Source of the DNA: Pseudooceanicola sp.
Lineage (GTDB): Bacteria; Pseudomonadota; Alphaproteobacteria; Rhodobacterales; Rhodobacteraceae
Direction: 5' to 3'
Assembly (NCBI GenBank): GCA_002709085.1
Contig: PAPR01000055.1
Coordinates: 1 to 43,510, forward strand
Length of the DNA: 43,510 nucleotides
The stretch's first letter is position 1, and each line of letters opens with the position of its first letter. A program made the translations under genes and the position numbers. Shown one piece after another: positions 27,576 through 36,930 of this stretch. The notes under the pieces were generated by a model. It had not been told where the DNA came from and did no database searches. It was given only the letters and a program-made list of their open reading frames with translations.

Positions 27576-28472
27576 ATGCGCCATCCTGAATACCAATACC
27601 TCGACCTGCTGGCCCAAGTGCTTGAGACAGGAGACGAGCGCATCGACAGGACCGGCGTCGGCACGCGGTCCATATTCGGTTCAATGGTGCGCTTTGATCT
27701 ATCCAATGGGACTGTGCCGATCCTCACGACAAAGCGAGTCTACTGGAAGACAGCCGTGAAAGAGATGCTGTGGTTTCTGACAGGCGGGACGAACATTCAA
27801 CCGCTCTTGCGTGAGAATGTCCGCATCTGGACCGACTGGCCTTTGGCCGCCTATCGACGTGAGACATCCGAGGACATCACGCAGGAAGCTTTCGAGCAGC
27901 GCGTCATCGAGGATGACGCCTTTGCCGCGCGGTGGGGTGAGCTCGGCCCCGTTTACGGAAAACAATGGCGTCGGTGGCTGGGTTCGGACGGGAAGGAGCA
28001 TGACCAGATCGCTGATCTCATCCGGAGCCTTCGGGAAAATCCGACGAGCCGTCGCATGCTTTTCCACGGCTGGAACGTGTCGGAACTCGGCGCTATGGCT
28101 TTGCCGCCGTGCCACATGGTCTACCAATATCATGTCACCTCTGACGGACGTTTGAATTGTCTTTTGTTTCAAAGGTCTGTCGACCTTCTCCTCGGCGCGG
28201 CCTTCAATTTTGTCGGCGCGACCGCTCTGCAGTTGATGCTGGCGCAACAGGCCGGATTACGCCCCGGAGAGTTGGTGTGGGTCGGTGGTGACGTCCACCT
28301 GTACCTCAATCACCTCGAACAGGCCCGCGAGCAAATCTCGCGTGAGCCGCGCCCGTTTCCCCGGATGACACTCGCGTCCCGAGCCAGCAGCATCGACGAC
28401 TACCGGATTGAGGACTTTGAGGTTGAGGGCTACGCGCCCCATGCCGCGATCCGGGCAGACGTGGCTGTGTGA
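27576..28472 (+). CDS. thyA: Thymidylate synthase (ThyA)
   Basis: 298 residues from ATG 27576 (GAGG upstream). Methylates dUMP to dTMP using methylene-tetrahydrofolate and leaves dihydrofolate. Motifs: DRTGVGTRSIFG and the phosphate-binding arginine in TSRRMLFHGWNV. The catalytic cysteine is in ALPPCHMVYQYHV (C179); then CLLFQRSVDLLLGAAFNF and VWVGGDVHLYLNH. It is about 35 residues longer than E. coli ThyA because of an insertion at about 97-120 (TSEDITQEAFEQRVIEDDAF), as in many bacterial ThyA proteins. The dihydrofolate reductase gene folA that often follows thyA is absent here; a degenerate crotonase fragment comes next instead. Confidence 0.96.
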   Translation: MRHPEYQYLDLLAQVLETGDERIDRTGVGTRSIFGSMVRFDLSNGTVPILTTKRVYWKTAVKEMLWFLTGGTNIQPLLRENVRIWTDWPLAAYRRETSEDITQEAFEQRVIEDDAFAARWGELGPVYGKQWRRWLGSDGKEHDQIADLIRSLRENPTSRRMLFHGWNVSELGAMALPPCHMVYQYHVTSDGRLNCLLFQRSVDLLLGAAFNFVGATALQLMLAQQAGLRPGELVWVGGDVHLYLNHLEQAREQISREPRPFPRMTLASRASSIDDYRIEDFEVEGYAPHAAIRADVAV

Positions 28473-28559
28473 GCATCGCTCCGTCGATCGGGATAGTTAT
28501 TTATAAGCGATCCGTTAAGTCGTGACCTTTAGCCAACCTCGCAGCTTCACCTGCCTGAG

Positions 28560-28793
28560 GTGTTGGAGCCTGTAGCCTGTGCCATGATCAAAGAGTTTAC
28601 CCCCCTACCGTTCCGATTGGCGCGACAAGCCAAGCCGTCGATCACCAAGGGTTTGTACATGGCGCCGGCCAAGGGTATGATATTCGAGAGCGAATTCTAT
28701 ACGCCGCTGGTCGCGACCGACGACCAGCAAGAGGGCGCAGCCGCCAGGTCGGTGGTAAATGGAATTCGAGGACTGTTGAGGAGGATAGCATGA
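28560..28793 (+). pseudogene. C-terminal remnant of an enoyl-CoA hydratase (crotonase) gene
   Basis: The 77-codon frame reads like the last part of a crotonase. PLPFRLARQAKPSITKGLYM matches the usual helix of the type PLALRLAKQAINRGLD. The next stretch GMIFESEFYTPLVATDDQQEG matches the family pattern GLxxExxxxxxLxATxDxxEG. The catalytic N-terminal domain with the oxyanion-hole loops is absent. I see no continuation upstream, where thyA ends 87 bases before, so this is best read as a deletion remnant. The frame opens with GTG 28560 or ATG 28584 and its TGA overlaps the ATG of the lyase gene (ATGA), so the fragment may still be translated and couple to the lyase. It could equally be a short functional leader peptide. 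Confidence 0.65.
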
Positions 28794-29746
28794 CACACGT
28801 TCACATTCGGGAAGTCGGGCTTCGCGATGGCCTGCAACTGGTCAAGACCCTTGTCCCCGCTGAGGTCAAACTGGAATGGTTCAATGACTCCGCCGCAGCC
28901 GGGGTGCCGGAAATAGAGGTCACCTCCTTTGTGCCGTCGCATGTGATCCCGCAATTCGCCGACGCCGATGCCGTCATGCGGGGGGCGATGGGGCGGAGCG
29001 GGACGCTTGCCTCGGCCCTTGCGGTCAACTTGAAAGGCGCACAGCGGGCCTATGATCTGGGCGTGGCGAAACTGAACTATGTCGTTTCCGCCAGCGAAGA
29101 GCATAGCCTCTCCAACGTCCGTCGCACACCTGCGGTCGCGATGGAAGCTTTCTACGCCATGGTCGCGGAACGAAAGGAGCGGGGCCTGGAGGGATCGGTG
29201 GAGCTTAGCTGCGGTGTGGCGACCTCTTTCGGGTGCTCCTTGCAGGGCGAGGTTGCGCAGGACGAGGTGGTCCGGCTGGCCGTCTCCGCCGCCGAAGCCG
29301 GCGCGGACGAAATCATGATCGCGGACACGGTGGGTTTCGCCGATCCGGTGCGGGTCCGTACCCTGTTCAAGGCCGTGCGCGACGCTGTCGGCGACATCCC
29401 GGTCGCGGCGCATTTCCATGACACACGCGGGTTGGGCCTGGCCAATGTGCTGGCCGCCGTCGAGGTGGACATCCATCGGTTCGACGCGTCGCTCGGCGGT
29501 CTGGGCGGGTGTCCCTTTGCGCCTGGAGCCACCGGCAATATCAACACCGAGGACACGGTATACCTGCTGGAAACGATGGGGCTATCCACAGGTATTGACC
29601 TTGAGGCGCTGTTGGCTCTGCGCGCCAAGCTGCCCGGCTGGTTGCCCAATGAACGCATCGGCGGCTCTGTTCAACGTGCGGGTATTCCGCACTTGCCCAA
29701 GAGCTTCCCGTCGCTTGCGCGTGCAATGGCTGATCCGGTCGCGTAG
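28790..29746 (+). CDS. mvaB: Hydroxymethylglutaryl-CoA lyase family enzyme
   Basis: 318 residues. HMG-CoA lyase cleaves 3-hydroxy-3-methylglutaryl-CoA to acetoacetate and acetyl-CoA, as in leucine breakdown. The TIM-barrel features are EVGLRDGLQ with the catalytic Arg-Asp pair (D13), EVTSFVPSHVIPQF, and AHFHDTRGLGLAN with the metal-binding HxH. The signature GGLGGCPFAPGATGN carries the active-site cysteine (C241). Members next to acyl-CoA dehydrogenases, CoA-transferases and TRAP transporters often act on related hydroxyacyl-CoAs, so the true substrate is open. The ATG overlaps the stop of the crotonase remnant, implying a former hydratase-lyase pair. The GntR regulator lies downstream on the same strand. 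Confidence 0.9.
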   Translation: MTHVHIREVGLRDGLQLVKTLVPAEVKLEWFNDSAAAGVPEIEVTSFVPSHVIPQFADADAVMRGAMGRSGTLASALAVNLKGAQRAYDLGVAKLNYVVSASEEHSLSNVRRTPAVAMEAFYAMVAERKERGLEGSVELSCGVATSFGCSLQGEVAQDEVVRLAVSAAEAGADEIMIADTVGFADPVRVRTLFKAVRDAVGDIPVAAHFHDTRGLGLANVLAAVEVDIHRFDASLGGLGGCPFAPGATGNINTEDTVYLLETMGLSTGIDLEALLALRAKLPGWLPNERIGGSVQRAGIPHLPKSFPSLARAMADPVA

Positions 29747-29971: not shown

Positions 29972-29987
29972 TTATGTTCGAATAAAT
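29972..29987 (+). promoter_or_regulatory. Candidate GntR operator, site 1
   Basis: TTATGTTCGAATAAAT, a 16-base site centred on TTC|GAA. It resembles three other sites at 30055, 33411 and 36915. Centre-to-centre distance to site 2 is 83 bases, close to eight helical turns, which would suit a looped repressor complex. Confidence 0.5.
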
Positions 29988-30054
29988 GCTGGATTTGGTC
30001 AGGGTACGGCTGATTTCGGACCGATGTGATGGTCGTGGGGGCTAGTCTAGGCTC

Positions 30055-30070
30055 ATTTATCCGAATACAT
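30055..30070 (+). promoter_or_regulatory. Candidate GntR operator, site 2
   Basis: ATTTATCCGAATACAT, with six of eight half-site positions symmetric about CC|GA. Placed 50 bases ahead of the inferred GntR start codon, where binding would repress the gene's own transcription. Confidence 0.5.
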
Positions 30071-30120
30071 TTGTGTGCAACCGCTGGTGGTAAGGCTTCA
30101 CTAGGAAAAGGACTTCGGCC

Positions 30121-30879
30121 CTGACAACGACAAGCAACAACAGCCAACAGGAGTCCGAGCGGGGATCAAGGGTCCGGGCTATCGCCGGAACACTTACCGA
30201 TGAAATAGCCTCCGGCATCCCCAAGGTCGGCGATCGCTTTCCTCGCGAGATGGAGCTTCAGGCCCGGTTCGATGTCGGGCGGCATACGATCCGCGAAGCG
30301 CTCAAACTGCTGACCGAGAAGGGGTTGATCTCTCGACGGCAGAAATCCGGCACATTCGTTCTCTCGGACACGCCGATTTCGCCCTATGTGCACACGCTTC
30401 GCGACCTGCCCGGCCTGCTGGACTTCGCGCAGACGACGCGGCTGGATATACGGCATATCTCTGGTGTCTCGGGCTCTTCGCAGCTGCTTGAGGGCTACGA
30501 TAATCTGACGACGTTTCGATGGCTGCGCGTAGCGGGCCTGCGCACCGTTCGGGCCAATGGAACACCCCTGTGTTGGTCCGAAGTGCTGATCCGGAAAGAC
30601 CTCGCGCCGCCGCGTGAGGTTATTTTGTCGACGGACCGGGCGCTGTACGACGAAACGATGCGGCACAATGGTACTCGGCTGGAGTACGTCGAACAGGAAG
30701 CCGTGGCGATGTTGCAACCACCGGCCATGGCCAAAATCTTCAACGTCCCAGAGAATTCCGCCGCCCTGCTGATCAAGAGGCGGTTCGTGTCCCATTCCGG
30801 CGAGACCTTCGAGGTATCACAAAACCTGTATCCGGCGGCGCGCTACAAGCTGCACAGCATCTTTCGTCAACGACCCTGA
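30121..30879 (+). CDS. GntR family regulator with UTRA effector domain (HutC type), probable CTG start
   Basis: 252 residues if translation starts at CTG 30121, preceded by AAGGA with an 8-base spacer. No ATG, GTG or TTG lies between the in-frame stop at 30091 and ATG 30250. Starting at 30250 would remove the first helix (IAGTLTDEIASGIP) of the winged helix-turn-helix. The wHTH (about 19-82) reads FPREMELQARFDVGRHTIREAL, then EKGLISRRQKSGTFV. The C-terminal UTRA fold (about 105-250) ends LEYVEQEAVAMLQPPAMAKI, ALLIKRRFVSHSGETF, SQNLYPAARYKLHSI. UTRA domains bind small carboxylates or sugars as inducers. Neighbouring uptake and acyl-CoA genes, with shared operator-like sites, make it the likely local repressor. 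Confidence 0.88.
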   Translation: MTTTSNNSQQESERGSRVRAIAGTLTDEIASGIPKVGDRFPREMELQARFDVGRHTIREALKLLTEKGLISRRQKSGTFVLSDTPISPYVHTLRDLPGLLDFAQTTRLDIRHISGVSGSSQLLEGYDNLTTFRWLRVAGLRTVRANGTPLCWSEVLIRKDLAPPREVILSTDRALYDETMRHNGTRLEYVEQEAVAMLQPPAMAKIFNVPENSAALLIKRRFVSHSGETFEVSQNLYPAARYKLHSIFRQRP

Positions 30880-31009
30880 CCTTTTAGCTAGCGGCGCACA
30901 CTTGGTCAGCGGAACCGAGAGCGAACAGTAGACTTTCTACCGGGGCGCTTTGAAGCGCGGGCCGCATACGGGCGCTTGCCGACACCGGCTCGAGACTCCT
31001 TGGCGGATA

Positions 31010-32170
31010 TCAAAGACCCAGAACGTTCTTGGCCACGATCCCACGCTGCACCTCCGAGGTGCCGCCGTAGATGGTTGTTTGCAAGGTGTGCACCCAAAGG
31101 GCCGACGTGTTGACCTCAGAATCCTGCGGCGCGACATAACCCGCGGCATCGCCGACCAGCTCCATCGCCTCCATCGCTATCCGCTGGTAAAGCTCGGTCT
31201 GGTTGATCTTGAGCAGCGACACATCCGGACCAATCTTTTCACCGGACTTCAGTTTGTCGACAAAGCTTTCGTACAACGACACATGGTCCGCAAGCTCTAG
31301 CGCCAGCAGCATGTACCGGTCGCGAAAGGCCGAATCCTCCCACGAGCCGGTTTCGCGCGCCACATCTTCGAGACGGCTCAGCGCCAGCGACGACTGCGCG
31401 GGCGACCCGACAAAGATGCGTTCAAAGCCGAGCAATGCCTTCGCGATCGTCCATCCGGAATTCAACTCCCCCACCAGCGCATCCAGCGGGACACGAACAT
31501 CGTCAAAGAAAACTTCGCAAAAATCGTCGGTTCTGGTTAATGTGAGGATCGGTCTGACCTCGACGCCGGGCGTGTCTGTCGGCACGAGGAAGAAGCTTAT
31601 CCCCTCCTGGTTCTTTGCGCTCTTGTCGGTGCGGGCCAGCAGGTAAATCCAGTTCGCGTCATTGCCGAGCGAGGTCCAGATTTTTTGTCCATTGATGACC
31701 CATTCATCACCGTCACGCACGGCTTCTGTCCGCAGGCTGGCCAGATCAGAGCCTGCGTTGGGTTCGCTATAGCCCTGTGCCCAGATATGTTCGCCCGTGT
31801 GGATCTTGGGGAGGAAATAATCGCGCTGGGCCTGCGTGCCGTAGTCGATCAGCAGCGGCCCCAACATGATGACGCCCTGATCGTTGACGCGGGTACAGCC
31901 GTGGCGTTCTAACTCCTCGATATAGATGACGCGCTTGGCCGGGCCCAATCCCATGCCGCCGTGTTCGCGCGGCCAGTTTGGCGCCAGCCAGCCCTTTTCG
32001 GACAGCAGGTCATACCAGACCTTGGAATCCTTGTGGTGCAGGCGGTTCAGCGGAAACCTCAGCTCCTCCGGGTAGTTTTTCTGAACCCAGTCGCGGACCT
32101 CGGCGCGAAAGGCCGCATCGGTCATCTCATTGTAATCGCGGCCCGAATGGGGGGTGGTCGTTGTGTCCAT
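31010..32170 (-). CDS. Acyl-CoA dehydrogenase, large (catalytic) subunit of a two-subunit type
   Basis: 386 residues; ATG 32170 follows GGGAAGGATAGG. FAD enzyme that oxidises an acyl-CoA to the 2-enoyl-CoA. Motifs: WLAPNWPREHGGMGL, QGYSEPNAGSDLASLRTEA (FAD/substrate), INGQKIWTSLGNDANWIYLL, and the C-terminal TTIYGGTSEVQRGIVAKNVL. The position of the MCAD catalytic glutamate is Gly in YGGT. The base is therefore probably E250 in ALLGFERIFVGS, as in isovaleryl-CoA dehydrogenase and in PimC/FadE-type heteromers. Its partner subunit gene lies 15 bases upstream. The pimeloyl-CoA (PimC-PimD) and steroid side-chain dehydrogenases have this pairing, so a dicarboxylic, branched or bulky acyl-CoA is a reasonable guess. 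Confidence 0.92.
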   Translation of the reverse strand: MDTTTTPHSGRDYNEMTDAAFRAEVRDWVQKNYPEELRFPLNRLHHKDSKVWYDLLSEKGWLAPNWPREHGGMGLGPAKRVIYIEELERHGCTRVNDQGVIMLGPLLIDYGTQAQRDYFLPKIHTGEHIWAQGYSEPNAGSDLASLRTEAVRDGDEWVINGQKIWTSLGNDANWIYLLARTDKSAKNQEGISFFLVPTDTPGVEVRPILTLTRTDDFCEVFFDDVRVPLDALVGELNSGWTIAKALLGFERIFVGSPAQSSLALSRLEDVARETGSWEDSAFRDRYMLLALELADHVSLYESFVDKLKSGEKIGPDVSLLKINQTELYQRIAMEAMELVGDAAGYVAPQDSEVNTSALWVHTLQTTIYGGTSEVQRGIVAKNVLGL

Positions 32171-32185
32171 GATCCTATCCTTCCC

Positions 32186-33253
32186 TCATGCGACCTGATC
32201 GGACGGCATGGCAGCCACCGTCCGCGACAGGGCGTCATAGCGCCGTCTGTGTGTGCTCGCGGTGCCGTATTGATTAAAGAGGGTTGCGATTTTGCGGGTA
32301 TAAAGTCCGATGTCGTGCTCGTCCGTGATGGCGACTGCGCCGTGCATCTGGGTGCTGTGACGCGAGATGAGCATGGCCGTGTCCGAGGCGCGGGCTTTGG
32401 CGCGTGACACGCTCATCCTGCGCGCATCGAGGGACTCTTCGGTCTCGAATTTGGCCACACAATCGGCCAGCACCGCCCTTGTGATCTCTAGCTGCAGCTT
32501 CATGTCCACGGCCCGATGCTGGATCACCTGAAAGGACCCAATGGCCCGGCCGAACTGGTGGCGCATCTTGACGTAATCGAGCGTCATTTCAAACGCGCGG
32601 TCCGCGGCGCCGAGCAGATAAGCCGCCGTTGCCAGCGTCGCACGTTCGCGCGCCATCGATAGATCGCCCAGCGGTCTGGCGTGAACCGCGTTAAACGTCA
32701 CTTTGGAATAGGTCCCGCCGTCGAGAGTATCAGAGGGCTCGATCGTGCAATCCTTAGCCGCGATATAAGCCGATCCATCGTTCGTCTGCACGACGAACCC
32801 ATGTGCGCAAAGGGCGCTGGGGACGCGGTCCGCCGAACCTGTCAGGGTGGCATTCTCGCCAACGGCCGAGAGTGAAGCATCGCCGACCAACTCTTGCCAA
32901 ATAGGCATGACGACCAGAGCGCCGGTAAGCGTATCCGCCAAGAGGTCCGCAGGCAGGTCAGGCGCAATCGAAGCCACCGCGATCAACGGTTCAGGCACCA
33001 GCGCACGACCCAACTCCTCGGCCAGGCCAAGGAATTCGCTCATGCCCAGGCCAATGCCGTCCGAGCTTTCGTCGACGAGTATCCCGATCCACCCAAGGTC
33101 GGCCATCTTTTGCCAAGTGGCGTCATCGGTGCCCGGCTTAGTGAAACGCAAGGCCCGGATCCGTTGCAAATCGCCGGGGGATCCGGTGATTGCGGCGGCG
33201 CTGTTCCGGATCATCCGAATATTTTGCGCGCGCTCATCGGCATTGTCGGTCAT
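32186..33253 (-). CDS. Acyl-CoA dehydrogenase, small subunit of a two-subunit type
   Basis: 355 residues. Of two adjacent ATGs, the one at 33253 has the better spacing (7 bases) from GGAG; the longer frame to 33412 is arginine-rich non-coding sequence. The N-terminal helical domain has WQKMADLGWIGILVDESSDGIGLGM in which several usual FAD contacts are replaced, and EFLGLAEELGRALVPEPLI. The C-terminal domain keeps YVKMRHQFGRAIGSFQVIQH, the FAD-pyrophosphate arginine motif. The middle beta domain is short and lacks the SEP/GSD flavin motif seen in the large subunit. These features fit the beta subunit of alpha2beta2 enzymes such as PimD or FadE29. It heads a two-gene operon with the large subunit. 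Confidence 0.88.
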   Translation of the reverse strand: MTDNADERAQNIRMIRNSAAAITGSPGDLQRIRALRFTKPGTDDATWQKMADLGWIGILVDESSDGIGLGMSEFLGLAEELGRALVPEPLIAVASIAPDLPADLLADTLTGALVVMPIWQELVGDASLSAVGENATLTGSADRVPSALCAHGFVVQTNDGSAYIAAKDCTIEPSDTLDGGTYSKVTFNAVHARPLGDLSMARERATLATAAYLLGAADRAFEMTLDYVKMRHQFGRAIGSFQVIQHRAVDMKLQLEITRAVLADCVAKFETEESLDARRMSVSRAKARASDTAMLISRHSTQMHGAVAITDEHDIGLYTRKIATLFNQYGTASTHRRRYDALSRTVAAMPSDQVA

Positions 33254-33406
33254 CATTCGTCTCCGGTTTGATTTGCGAGAAAGGGCAGGACCGGCCCAAC
33301 GTATTTGAGGAATCGAACTGTGACTTTTCCCCGATCCGCTCGACCAGATTTCACCCCGCCGAAGTCGCTCCACGACTGGGCTACGTTTTTCACGCGCACT
33401 GTTTTC

Positions 33407-33426
33407 TGTCAATAGTTCGAAGAATA
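33407..33426 (-). promoter_or_regulatory. Candidate GntR operator overlapping a -35 box, acyl-CoA dehydrogenase operon
   Basis: On the minus strand TATTCTTCGAACTATT (33426 to 33411) matches the site in front of the TRAP-TAXI operon at 13 of 16 positions. Its last bases run into TTGACA (33412 to 33407), a perfect -35 box. The -10 element 16-18 bases further on is weak. The site lies about 160 bases before the small-subunit start. The rest of the 262-base gap holds the TRAP terminator and nothing else I can name. Confidence 0.5.
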
Positions 33427-33493
33427 CTCAATGCCTGCGAGGCCTGCGCCGAGCCCTTAGTCATCTGCACGACCCATGGCGCCAATCTGAAAG

Positions 33494-33518
33494 GACACGA
33501 CGCCGCAACGTCGTGTCA
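33494..33518 (-). terminator. Intrinsic terminator overlapping the TRAP permease stop codon
   Basis: GACACGACG (33494-33502) pairs with CGTCGTGTC (33509-33517) around a 6-base loop. Read in the minus direction the 9-bp stem is followed by CTTTC. The permease stop codon TGA (33518-33516) lies in the first arm, so the hairpin forms only as ribosomes leave. It separates the importer operon from the acyl-CoA dehydrogenase operon. Confidence 0.65.
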
Positions 33519-35453
33519 GCTTTGCAGAGGTGTATCATCGGCGCTTTTGAACAGCAGTGGACGTCCATAGACCAGTACCAGGATAGCCAGACCGGCAAAA
33601 TCCGTCCGATGTTCCGGCGTCATGAGCAACAGCCCACCCGCAGCCAGCAGCAGCGTTTCGATCCAGGCCAATTTGCGCGCATGGAAATACAGGTAACGTT
33701 CTGTCGCAGAGGATATCATGAAGATGGCGACCGTAGCTGTCACGGCGGCCATCGCGATTGTTATCGCGTCGCCCTGCATGACGAGTGCTGGATTATAGAC
33801 GAACATGAACGGCAGGACAAAGAGTACAGCCCCCAGGCGCATGGCGGAGACACCGGTTCGCATGGCAGGGGATCCTGCGATCGATGCGGCGGCCACCGCA
33901 GCCAGCGCGACAGGCGGGGTGATGTAGGACAGCATGCCCCAATAAAGGATGAACAGGTGACTGGCGATCGGGTTCAGGCCGCTTTGCACGAGAACCGGCG
34001 CCAGAACGACCGCGAGGAAGATGTAGCAAGCCGAAGCTGTCATACCCATCCCGAGCACGAAACTGGTGATCGCGCCAAGTATGAGGATCAGGAAGAGGTT
34101 GCCATTGGCAAATTGCACAAGCTCGCGACTAAATGCATTGCCGACGCCGGTGATCGACAGAGACCCGACAATCAGTCCAATGCCCGCGACGATGCCGACA
34201 AGGCTGGCAATGCCAACGCCGGATTCCATGATGACATCGCAGATAGCCCGCAATGCGCCGTTCGATCGGTTGTAATAGATGGTGGTTGCGATCAACAGGA
34301 TCGTGACCAGATAGGGCGCCCTTGATTCCAGGGATAGCCCCAACAGCAGATAGACCAGCAAGGCCAGGCTGAGGCAGTAGATCCATCCGCTTCGGAATGT
34401 TGCTCCGACCTTGGGAAGCTGCGCTCTGGGCAGGCCTTTCAGGCCATTCAGGGCAGCAAAGCTGTCCGCCTGCAAAAGCAGGGTGGCATAAAACAATGTG
34501 GCCGGGATAATCGCCGCCACCATGATCGTCGAATAGGGCACGTTCAGAAACGACGCCATGATGAAGGCCACCGAACCCATCACGGGTGGCATAAGCGCGC
34601 CGCCGGTCGAGGCACATGCCTCGATGGCCGCTGCATATCTGGCCGGATAGCCGGTTCGGATCATGGTGGGGATCGTCATGGCCCCGGTTCCGATGACGTT
34701 GGAAATGACGCTTCCGGACAGCGATCCGAAAAAGCCGCTGGAGACGATGGCGACCTTTGCAGGTCCGCCCCTCGTTCCTCCGAGGAGCGCGTTCGCCATG
34801 TCCATAAAGAACCGCCCGCCGCCGGAGACGGTCAGGGCCACGCCAAAGATGATAAAGCCTATGACCAGATCGGCGAGGATACGGGTCGGCACGCCAATGA
34901 TGCTCTCCAGACCCATCGAATAGGCCCGTGTCGCTTCCAGGGGGGTGTACTGCATGCCCCAGAGCACGCCGGGCATTGAATCGGCGAACAATGGAAAGAG
35001 CCCGAAGGCCAGGCAGATAAAGAAGAGGATACCGCTGCCGCATCGCCGCACCGCCTCCAACGACACAGCGATCAGGCAGAACGAGGCCAGTGTTGGTAAG
35101 GGCGGGGCATCCAGCTCCCATCCCATCGCGATGATGCTTCGGGCCTGGGTCGATAGATACAGGCAAGATACGAGGGCGATCAGCGCCACGATCCAGTCAT
35201 ACCAGGGGACACGATCAGTATGCTTCGGGATTGCGGGGTAGGCCAGAAACGCGACCGCCATAAACAGACCCACCAGCATATAGTAATAGGTCGTGCTGAG
35301 CGGGCTGAAACCAAATAAACGCAGCAGGAATATTTGGTTAATGGATAGCAGGATACCTGCGGCGCTGAGTGCTATCACCGCGAACCACGCGACACCCCTC
35401 AGGCGCACCCCTTCACGTCGCCAGCCCCAAACAGGTTCGATCGTTTCAGTCAT
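33516..35453 (-). CDS. TRAP transporter fused permease (DctQM type, TAXI family)
   Basis: 645 residues from ATG 35453; TTG 35489 is an alternative. Secondary transporter driven by a sodium or proton gradient, fed by a periplasmic binding protein. The N-terminal four-helix part (about 25-150) corresponds to DctQ. From about 180 the DctM-like part begins, with RILADLVIGFIIFGVALTVSGGG, the conserved GGPAKVAIVSSGFFGSLSGSV, ACASTGGALMPPVMGSVAF, and later GMGMTASACYIFLAVVLAP and GMLSYITPPVALAAVAAASI. These blocks define the fused TAXI-associated permeases. A stem-loop separates it from the upstream binding-protein gene. The substrate is unknown; related systems take up C4-dicarboxylates, glutamate, 2-oxoglutarate and other organic acids. 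Confidence 0.93.
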   Translation of the reverse strand: MTETIEPVWGWRREGVRLRGVAWFAVIALSAAGILLSINQIFLLRLFGFSPLSTTYYYMLVGLFMAVAFLAYPAIPKHTDRVPWYDWIVALIALVSCLYLSTQARSIIAMGWELDAPPLPTLASFCLIAVSLEAVRRCGSGILFFICLAFGLFPLFADSMPGVLWGMQYTPLEATRAYSMGLESIIGVPTRILADLVIGFIIFGVALTVSGGGRFFMDMANALLGGTRGGPAKVAIVSSGFFGSLSGSVISNVIGTGAMTIPTMIRTGYPARYAAAIEACASTGGALMPPVMGSVAFIMASFLNVPYSTIMVAAIIPATLFYATLLLQADSFAALNGLKGLPRAQLPKVGATFRSGWIYCLSLALLVYLLLGLSLESRAPYLVTILLIATTIYYNRSNGALRAICDVIMESGVGIASLVGIVAGIGLIVGSLSITGVGNAFSRELVQFANGNLFLILILGAITSFVLGMGMTASACYIFLAVVLAPVLVQSGLNPIASHLFILYWGMLSYITPPVALAAVAAASIAGSPAMRTGVSAMRLGAVLFVLPFMFVYNPALVMQGDAITIAMAAVTATVAIFMISSATERYLYFHARKLAWIETLLLAAGGLLLMTPEHRTDFAGLAILVLVYGRPLLFKSADDTPLQS

Positions 35454-35528
35454 TTGAGGGCTCACAATAAAAGGGAAATATGCCGGCAACTGTCAGTTGA
35501 GGCGAAACAAAACATCTGGTGCCAAGGT

Positions 35529-35555
35529 CGGGCGTCCCGATAAACGCGACGCCCG
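35529..35555 (-). promoter_or_regulatory. Intercistronic stem-loop between TAXI binding protein and permease genes
   Basis: CGGGCGTC (35529-35536) and GACGCCCG (35548-35555) form a perfect 8-bp stem with an 11-base loop, 17 bases after the binding-protein stop. There is no U-tract. Such elements commonly shield the upstream cistron from 3' decay, giving more binding protein than permease. A second, 13-base palindrome CAACTGTCAGTTG (35487-35499) follows. Confidence 0.5.
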
Positions 35556-35572
35556 GTTTTGGCTGGGGGCTG

Positions 35573-36712
35573 TTATTTCAGCGCTTCGGCCTTGTAGGCC
35601 TCCCAATACGCGGGCCATTCCTTGTCGGAAACACCTTCGTCGAGTGCCTTTTCATTGGCCTCATCCCAAGCGGCCCTCAAGTTCTCGGAACGCTTCAGAC
35701 GACCCTGGTTCCAGGCTTCATCTTCCTCGGTCCACACGTTGATTTCCTTGAGGTACTTAATAGCTCCGGGGTGGAAAGGTGCATCCGATGGCGTCTTGCC
35801 CGACTCGGAGATTTGCCAGCTCGGCATAATCGCGTTCATACCTTTGTAAATTCCATAGGTTTCATCGACGGCTTTGATCATGGCGTATACCAGATCATCA
35901 TCGGTGTCGGCATAGGTCGCGACAATTGGATACCGGTAGCCCATAAGTTGTACCGGCGCATCCTCGGAAATCCCCGCGCCAATTGTTTCCTCAGCGGGCT
36001 TCAAGAAGGATATGCTCTCTTGTATCCGCGCCCAACCTTCGGTGTCTTCCGCCGGCAACTCGATCCAAGTTGCACCGCGCCCGGCTTCCAGTTCACGTAG
36101 CGCGGCAGCAGTTGGCACAGAGACAGCTGCCTGCACAGTACCATCAGAAAGCCCCAGGAGAGACGAGCCGTAGGACGGCATATTAATCCGGTCAACATCG
36201 TCCCATGTCATGCCAGCAAAGGCGAGAACGGCTTCGGTCTTGATATTTGCCGAAGGATTGGCTTCGACGTAGGCGACCCGCTTTCCTCTGAGGTCCTCAG
36301 CCGTCCGAATGTTGGCGTCGGTTGCCGAAACAACACCTGCAGTCGCCGGTCGACCCATCAGAACACGCAGATCCTGCGGCCCCCATTCACGGCCAGAAAA
36401 CTCATAAAGCGCTTCGCTGGAAAAATTCGCTTCACTGCCCAGGAAGGCAAACTGGACGCGTCCAGTCTTTAGGGGGAGCAAGCGGCCGATGCCCGAGCTT
36501 GACGGCATCAGTCGGATTCGGACGCCGTATTCCTTGATCAACGCGTCCGCGATGGCCGAGGCTTCGACGTAGCCGCTGGAGCCGACGTCATAGGTGGTCC
36601 AGGTCAATGTCTTCGGCAGCATGCCATCTTCGGCCGTTGCCGAAGCAGCGACTCCCAGTGACAATGCCACAGGCAGTATGGCCGCGGCGGCCAAGCGTTT
36701 AAAATATAACAA
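35573..36712 (-). CDS. TAXI family TRAP transporter solute-binding protein
   Basis: 379 residues starting at TTG 36712, which GGGAG precedes by 7 bases; no ATG gives a signal peptide. Residues 1-27 are a Sec signal (KRLAAAAILPVALSLGVAAS). The mature protein captures the solute in the periplasm. Family features: TYDVGSSGYVEASAIADALI, IRLMPSSSGIGRLLPLKTGRVQFAFLGSE (the hallmark early block), DLRGKRVAYVEANPSANIKT, and a C-terminal AWDEANEKALDEG. The W-rich tail (KEWPAYWEAYKAEAL) is unusually acidic and charged. The TTG start suggests tuned translation. It is first in the operon with the fused permease. Confidence 0.92.
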   Translation of the reverse strand: MLYFKRLAAAAILPVALSLGVAASATAEDGMLPKTLTWTTYDVGSSGYVEASAIADALIKEYGVRIRLMPSSSGIGRLLPLKTGRVQFAFLGSEANFSSEALYEFSGREWGPQDLRVLMGRPATAGVVSATDANIRTAEDLRGKRVAYVEANPSANIKTEAVLAFAGMTWDDVDRINMPSYGSSLLGLSDGTVQAAVSVPTAAALRELEAGRGATWIELPAEDTEGWARIQESISFLKPAEETIGAGISEDAPVQLMGYRYPIVATYADTDDDLVYAMIKAVDETYGIYKGMNAIMPSWQISESGKTPSDAPFHPGAIKYLKEINVWTEEDEAWNQGRLKRSENLRAAWDEANEKALDEGVSDKEWPAYWEAYKAEALK

Positions 36713-36789
36713 TGTTTATCTCCCTCAGGTCTTCCGTTTTCTGCGTTTAAATTACAGCAACTTGGTCAAATACTGAAACCGGCGTCGGG

Positions 36790-36814
36790 ATATGTCAATA
36801 TTAATCCGACATAT
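36790..36814. promoter_or_regulatory. Inverted repeat upstream of the TAXI binding-protein gene
   Basis: ATATGTC (36790-36796) and GACATAT (36808-36814) are perfect complements with an 11-base AT-rich spacer, 78 bases before the TTG start. Its size and placement fit a transcription-factor site or promoter-overlapping operator unrelated in sequence to the YC|GAA sites. Confidence 0.45.
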
Positions 36815-36914
36815 ATCGTCCGCCCTTGGGGGCTGCCGGTCTTTATATGACGTTTCTTTGATTTGGCTTTAGCGACAAGACATTTCTTAATAGGGATATA
36901 AAACATCAAGTACA

Positions 36915-36930
36915 TATTGTCCGAACTATT
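36915..36930 (+). promoter_or_regulatory. Candidate GntR operator upstream of the TAXI-TRAP operon
   Basis: TATTGTCCGAACTATT, 13 of 16 positions identical to the site before the acyl-CoA dehydrogenases. It is followed by ATTTATCCAAAAACA (36928-36942), whose first eight bases equal the left half of site 2 at 30055, so a degenerate second site may overlap it. Confidence 0.5.

Follow-up and report, generated by a model that had tools for sequence, protein, structure and literature searches.

A stretch of 43,510 nucleotides from Pseudooceanicola sp. contig PAPR01000055.1 (the window) raises the question of whether one GntR-family regulator controls, through one shared operator, its own gene, a TAXI-type TRAP importer and a two-subunit acyl-CoA dehydrogenase. 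The initial annotation of this DNA had drawn such a link from four similar 16-base sites, and the link is supported by conservation in a sibling genome and by the small number of other places that carry the strict form of the motif. Based on these sequence comparisons, we consider it highly likely that the GntR, TAXI-TRAP and acyl-CoA dehydrogenase promoters form a small local regulon of a GntR repressor of the HutC/UTRA type. The control circuit is very probably real but ordinary. The candidate operators are the following.

29972..29987, plus strand: operator O1 of the GntR gene, TTATGTTCGAATAAAT
30055..30070, plus strand: operator O2 of the GntR gene, ATTTATCCGAATACAT
33411..33426, minus strand: operator O3, before the dehydrogenase operon and overlapping its TTGACA, TATTCTTCGAACTATT
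36915..36930, plus strand: operator O4, distal site of the TAXI-TRAP promoter, TATTGTCCGAACTATT
36798..36817, minus strand: operator O5, degenerate, proximal site of the TAXI-TRAP promoter, rank 5 of 43,491 with a matrix trained on foreign sites

The letters of the four 16-mers, O1–O4, were checked and stand where they had been placed. Their alignment has seven invariant columns of 16, as originally counted, and the spacing of 83 bases between O1 and O2 is likewise correct (7.9 turns); O3 and O4 agree at 14 of 16 bases rather than the 13 given before. Compared with their own reverse complements, O1–O4 are imperfect (degenerate) inverted repeats of the approximate form wwwwRTYCGRAYwwww, a palindromic nature that the first reading had not mentioned. 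The site it had reported before the TAXI gene at 36915 is present but is the distal one; the weaker proximal O5 at 36798-36817, which aligns with a strong sibling site (L094 12016), had been overlooked. The statement that the motif is confined to the three neighbouring promoters holds insofar as no further window position exceeds 13.1 bits, but it missed this fifth site, and not every promoter in the window was located.

Matrix scans covered 43,491 positions of the window. In a leave-one-out design with a symmetrised matrix, each of O1–O4 ranks fourth, behind only its three training sites. A foreign matrix, built from nine sites of loci L047, L048, L094 and L122 and including no window site, places O1–O4 at window ranks 1–4 (21.2, 19.5, 17.7 and 17.4 bits) and O5 at rank 5 (16.2 bits), the next position reaching 13.1 bits; since these nine sites had first come to notice by eye or through the window matrix, the two matrices retain some dependence on each other. 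Across 200 dinucleotide shuffles, matches at least as strong as the weakest of O1–O4 average 0.055, with a maximum of one per shuffle. The weight-matrix scan that the initial annotation had proposed thus puts its four sites on top, with the shuffles near zero. That the four sites are merely AT-rich promoter sequences alike by chance would accord with the loose patterns, which are as common genome-wide as their reversed controls; however, the ranking by the separately trained foreign matrix strongly contradicts this explanation, conservation at three corresponding sibling promoters also speaks against it, and we regard it as extremely improbable. A further position at 33207-33226 (10.9-11.3 bits) falls within the small-subunit gene, 202 bp away from O3 and not in phase with it, and was not counted as an operator. 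The HMG-CoA-lyase-like gene upstream of GntR has no motif in front of it (best 6.0 bits within 28401-28900).

The GntR regulator is found at E <= 1e-30 in two of 22 congeneric genomes, the window's own and that of a sibling Pseudooceanicola sp. (G298; 79% identity). The coordinates of its sibling locus match those on contig NZ_JARGNH010000042.1 (L047), and another G298 contig (L094) carries orthologues of the TAXI protein (76%), the permease (83%), the small subunit (67%) and the large subunit (86%). The motif occurs at all three corresponding G298 promoters, those of GntR, TAXI and the dehydrogenase operon, which is the conservation beside an orthologous GntR gene that had been suggested as a check. 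At L047 6706-6721, between GntR and a divergent enoyl-CoA hydratase–lyase pair, 14 of 16 bases are identical to O1. The O3 counterpart at L094 8663-8682, the best match there (25.8 bits), lies between the permease and the dehydrogenase operon, and the region that separates TAXI from a divergent acyl-CoA ligase gene holds sites at L094 12016 and 12121, 12121 being the O4 counterpart, 105 bp from the proximal site. With the window-only matrix, just three positions in the 16 kb read of L094 reach at least 18 bits, compared with none in 300 shuffles, and two positions of L047 (15.4 kb) reach at least 16 bits (shuffle mean 0.057, at most 1).

The regulon had been called self-contained and was supposed to serve one organic acid. 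The first description is not borne out by the sibling, since its motif also stands before the enoyl-CoA hydratase–lyase pair and, at L047 4325-4344, before an operon of MmgE/PrpD, acyl-CoA dehydrogenase and CoA-transferase genes. In addition, the dehydrogenase operon of L094 comprises FAS1_DH-like, MaoC, thiolase-like and ChsH2-type zinc-ribbon/OB genes together with the small and large dehydrogenase genes, while in the window O3 is followed by the small-subunit gene with neither hydratase nor thiolase genes in between, and no divergent ligase gene lies beyond O4. When the stretch from O3 to the small subunit was searched by blastn for what might be left of the sibling hydratase and thiolase genes, the operator and the small-subunit start were the only matches, all else being at E >= 0.16. 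We infer that the hydratase, thiolase and ligase genes may have been lost from the window locus, with a gain in the sibling as the alternative. The sibling GntR contig also carries genes for a Rep3-type initiator and for ParA-like and ParB-like proteins (L047 10652-14865), which suggests that the L047 part of the regulon is located on a plasmid or chromid.

Throughout the genomes, just the strict palindrome discriminates, the looser forms being at background. The window's genome has the strict form three times, as O1, as O4 and once in contig C4, and G298 also has it three times, there in each case at a predicted promoter. Among the remaining 20 congeneric genomes, which have no GntR at E <= 1e-30, it is present nine times in total (0-2 each), and its reversed control gives four in all 22 genomes; O2 and O3 each depart from the strict pattern in a single base position. 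Six of the 21 loose-pattern places outside the window were inspected: those in C33, C37 and C38 lie inside mechanical reading frames, C4:11710 is AT-rich, C26:59227 lies between two frames, and the sixth, in contig C67, is discussed below. Within the 5 kb read around each of the two further UTRA genes in the window's genome, no site exceeds 12 bits. Contig C4 (L066) is 36 kb long and has 27% GC in the 6 kb read, compared with 60-65% in other stretches read from the assembly; its DNA is probably of foreign or phage origin and gives rise to false motif matches.

The association of the motif with GntR and with TAXI genes was compared over two sets of loci: 31 GntR homologue loci (25 from the family and 6 from the class, approximately 25-50% identity, window and L047 left out) and 18 TAXI homologue loci (44-52% identity) from 17 genomes. 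Sites of at least 16 bits are present at 12/31 GntR loci and 0/18 TAXI loci (one-sided Fisher p 0.0015), and sites of at least 14 bits at 15/31 and 2/18, respectively (p 0.008). Among the TAXI-locus genomes, 13 of 17 were searched for GntR, of which 11 have no match at E <= 1e-20, and G188 (32%) and G250 (28%) have remote ones; G327, G348, G379 and G396 were outside the search. Where GntR homologues share at least 47% identity, a site stands directly before the GntR gene in three of four (L047, L048 and L122). L048 (G004:C617) is titled Oceanobacillus sp. HTM 045, yet it has approximately 71% GC and groups with the window's family, so the title looks wrong. No position of at least 9 bits was found with the two Azospirillum homologues of approximately 31% (L146), nor one of at least 14 bits at the Tritonibacter TAXI locus L145. 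A search of genome contigs gave two relatives of GntR only. A sequence-only covariance model of the sites had matches in four of 25 relatives, the best in G298 being the site behind the permease, and none in the window's own genome; it also missed the window sites in a direct search and is thus too insensitive for its silence to be counted either way.

The C67 place, in the window's own genome, is an overlapping double site at L078 6897 and 6908 (18.3 and 17.1 bits). It precedes an operon of acyl-CoA dehydrogenase, TRAP, CitE-like, MaoC and CoA-transferase genes (L078 1053-6920 and L077 14277-18776), of which the MaoC gene is mesaconyl-CoA-hydratase-like, and the contig has an IclR gene. The double site is conserved in G044, which by its handle belongs to the genomes searched for GntR and is not among the listed GntR matches at E <= 1e-20. 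The centre of the double site, GAACA-N1-TGTTC, is similar to the inner portion of the IclR group 2 consensus given in the accessible part of PMC8222616 (TGRAACAN1-2TGTTYCA), from which the outer bases and one G044 base differ. By this resemblance, the double site is probably an IclR site, a GntR response there being the alternative. The C67 operon was set aside as a regulon member, the site being kept where GntR was not found and having an IclR-like arrangement. The same look-alike, standing before a dehydrogenase/TRAP operon and kept in G044, is the argument for supposing that another regulator with a similar half-site, e.g., of the IclR family, binds the window sites and that the GntR gene is a bystander. 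However, the IclR-like centre has no counterpart in the window sites, and the motif lies directly before GntR in three of the four near homologues, while no TAXI homologue locus (18/18) has one of at least 16 bits; this explanation is very unlikely. We retain the GntR protein as the presumed binding protein of the operators, and the layout of the promoters bears on how it may act.

33407..33412, minus strand: putative -35 TTGACA of the dehydrogenase operon, also in L094
36793..36798, minus strand: putative -35 TTGACA of the TAXI-TRAP operon, also in L094

At the dehydrogenase promoter, the minus strand reads TTCGAA, three nucleotides and TTGACA, and at the TAXI promoter the core is followed by six nucleotides and TTGACA, in the window and the sibling alike. 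The 16-base operator of the window overlaps TTGACA by two bases at the dehydrogenase promoter (33412-33407, minus strand), an overlap already recorded in the initial annotation, and ends one base away from it at the TAXI promoter. All four TAXI and dehydrogenase-operon promoters, two per species, thus have a TTGACA that overlaps the proximal operator or sits next to it, which suggests repression. An operator at the -35 element usually excludes RNA polymerase, and ligand-relieved repression is the ordinary mode of the HutC subfamily; both fit the arrangement. In the mechanism that we propose, a ligand-free GntR dimer would occupy the palindromic operators at its own, the TAXI-TRAP and the dehydrogenase promoters, and the proximal operator, lying over or one base from the -35 TTGACA, would block RNA polymerase. 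A metabolite of the imported carboxylic acid, either the acid or its CoA ester, would then bind to the UTRA domain, whereupon the repressor would leave the DNA. Alternatively, the regulon might be real with GntR activating or only weakly modulating the TAXI and dehydrogenase promoters. The distal O4, 115 bp above the proximal site, and the poor -10 boxes of promoters that do have TTGACA would suit such a role, while the proximal operator covering or adjoining the -35 element in both species speaks against it, and we hold this alternative to be unlikely. 

The operator pairs at the GntR and TAXI promoters are spaced near whole turns (the O4–O5 distance of 115 bp corresponds to 10.95 turns), so that two dimers may cooperate on one DNA face. 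A matrix of 24 sites, among them the window sites and members of several pairs, was run over 34 loci and gave ten neighbouring pairs of at least 11 bits that lie 20-150 bp apart (83, 115, 105, 62, 83, 62, 64, 32, 123 and 22 bp). Nine of the ten are within approximately 1 bp of whole 10.5-bp turns, the exception being 123 (R = 0.79, Rayleigh p ~0.002, three helical periods having been tried). At a threshold of at least 13 bits, seven pairs are left (p ~0.004); when a weak, below-threshold L047 pair (88 bp) is added, p is ~0.011. These figures are suggestive of operator pairs cooperating on one helix face, without proving it.

Several observations weigh against a GntR regulon of this kind. Only one genome besides the window's, G298, was found with the whole set, and the window's genome assembly is 77% complete. 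The possible O2 counterpart at L047 6792, 88 bp from its partner, is weak (11.0 bits). With poor -10 regions, the TAXI and dehydrogenase promoters are only putative, and no TTGACA was seen at the GntR promoter. Many equally good sites at unrelated loci had been named beforehand as what would speak against the regulon; the strict motif has few further places, but looser patterns show hardly any surplus over reversed controls (20 vs 22, 25 vs 25 and 126 vs 111). For the strict C4 match, AT content is the only explanation on offer, and a 25.2-bit position before a MacB-like gene in G301, a genome with no GntR at E <= 1e-30, scores above any window site; it was not accepted as a regulon site and is taken as chance. 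No site of at least 16 bits is present at 19/31 GntR homologue loci. At L121 (49%), no site of at least 9 bits occurs in the 640 bases up to the GntR gene, one of 13.7 bits lying just after the gene and one of 19.1 bits further on. The layout and spacing of the GT-N4-AC operator of the HutC/UTRA subfamily fit the window sites, but only one of the four (O4) has GT together with AC; the base at the G of GT is G in four, A in three and C in one of the eight half-sites. The missing site before GntR in L121 and this incompleteness of GT-N4-AC slightly lower our confidence.

The genes concerned, which lie between and beside the operators, are listed below.

30121..30879, plus strand: GntR-family regulator of the HutC/UTRA type; Pfam GntR 66.5 bits (cut-off 27), UTRA 47.9 bits (cut-off 23.8)
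31010..32170, minus strand: acyl-CoA dehydrogenase, large subunit; closest solved chains 4x28_A, 6wy9_A and 6wy8_B
32186..33256, minus strand: acyl-CoA dehydrogenase, small subunit; sole solved relative at E <= 1e-15, 6wy8_A
33516..35489, minus strand: TRAP transporter fused permease; TIGR02123 557.6 bits (cut-off 320.65)
35573..36712, minus strand: TAXI-family TRAP solute-binding protein; TIGR02122 192.7 bits (cut-off 84.35)

The regulator has an N-terminal winged-helix GntR domain and a C-terminal UTRA domain, both above curated cut-offs, which places it in the HutC/UTRA subfamily, to which PhnF also belongs. For none of the families listed does its score attain the NCBIfam equivalog cut-off, and HutC proper, the histidine utilisation repressor (TIGR02018), was rejected at 73.6 bits against a cut-off of 220, the best stretch covering residues 20-87 only. 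Its start is probably the CTG at 30121, which sits 8 nt behind AAGGA: after the stop at 30091, no ATG, GTG or TTG follows in frame until codon 30250, which falls inside the DNA-binding domain. L047 (6826-6861) keeps CTG with GAGGA 8 nt upstream, so the CTG start is possibly conserved, and the L047 gene also has an ATG 33 nt before its CTG. The solute-binding protein and the fused permease, both above their cut-offs, constitute a TAXI-type TRAP transporter. The dehydrogenase pair is of the heteromeric type, the small subunit being related to 6wy8_A (Tcur3481) and the large one to 6wy8_B/6wy9_A (Tcur3483) and 4x28_A; a complex is predicted from this relatedness to the subunits of solved heteromers. 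The small subunit has no Pfam middle-domain match, and its start context is the same in the sibling protein. Identification of the dehydrogenases as PimC (pimeloyl-CoA dehydrogenase) or IpdE2 was rejected (273.9 bits vs a cut-off of 623.85 and 112 vs 450). One acyl-CoA dehydrogenase has 43 matches in the window's genome (3.0 Mb) and 23 in the congeneric G192 (3.7 Mb).

No general idea about regulation is changed by this circuit. Its value is that an orphan TAXI-TRAP importer is linked to a defined set of enzymes and to a regulator that can be tested, which offers a direct route to the ligand, and that it supplies an operator model for a GntR clade that is transferable within the Rhodobacterales.

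Among known systems, the closest are the HutC subfamily of GntR regulators (HutC, NagR/YvoA), whose members and operators are surveyed in PMC4494728. As far as the available portion of that survey goes, the window system shares with them the GntR and UTRA domains and a palindromic operator of the same layout, which matches GT-N4-AC in relaxed form only, and double sites near HutC-type regulator genes are described there as well. It differs in the operator centre, which is YCGR instead of the published MTAK, and the consensus GTMTAKAC given in that portion is not matched by the window operators; the full GTCCGGAC core is found at homologue loci L074 and L075. Since subfamily membership rests on the domains, the different centre can be read as a specificity variant. 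Our alignment, in FadR numbering, places His of the window GntR at specificity position 39, at which Met is the commonest residue in the same part of PMC4494728. In the literature search, GTCCGGAC together with GntR was not found, nor were GntR, TAXI, TRAP transporter and regulon together, and TTGTCCGGACAA was found only in an unrelated context.

The neighbourhoods of related regulators also differ. At L047, L048, L122 and the Pontibrevibacter nitratireducens plasmid L144, homologous GntR genes stand beside MmgE/PrpD, acyl-CoA dehydrogenase, CoA-transferase and enoyl-CoA hydratase genes, whereas the window gene has TAXI-TRAP and heteromeric dehydrogenase neighbours and no adjacent MmgE/PrpD or CoA-transferase gene. 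The sites of L144 (32% identity) are weak, reaching 15.2 bits with the window matrix and, at that place, at most 12 with the other matrix. The large and small dehydrogenase subunits are paired as in PDB 4x28, 6wy8 and 6wy9, which we take to be heteromeric acyl-CoA dehydrogenases of steroid side-chain degradation, although in sequence these are only distant relatives (93-172 bits). Tentatively, and with rather low confidence, the window and its relatives may represent a HutC-type clade with a YCGR operator, in which helically phased pairs serve the cooperative or looped repression of TAXI-TRAP and a steroid-side-chain-like dehydrogenase module, with ChsH2-like parts in the sibling and a branched or cyclic carboxylic acid as the substrate. 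The sibling operon also has FAS1_DH-like, MaoC, thiolase-like and ChsH2-type genes, as in the side-chain hydratase/aldolase operons described in the accessible parts of PMC12502768 and PMC11321319; unlike those, the window operon has no hydratase and thiolase genes. By analogy with these operons, the sibling gene set of ligase, importer, heteromeric dehydrogenase, MaoC-like hydratase, thiolase-like and ChsH2-type proteins suggests that a branched or cyclic carboxylic acid would be its substrate.

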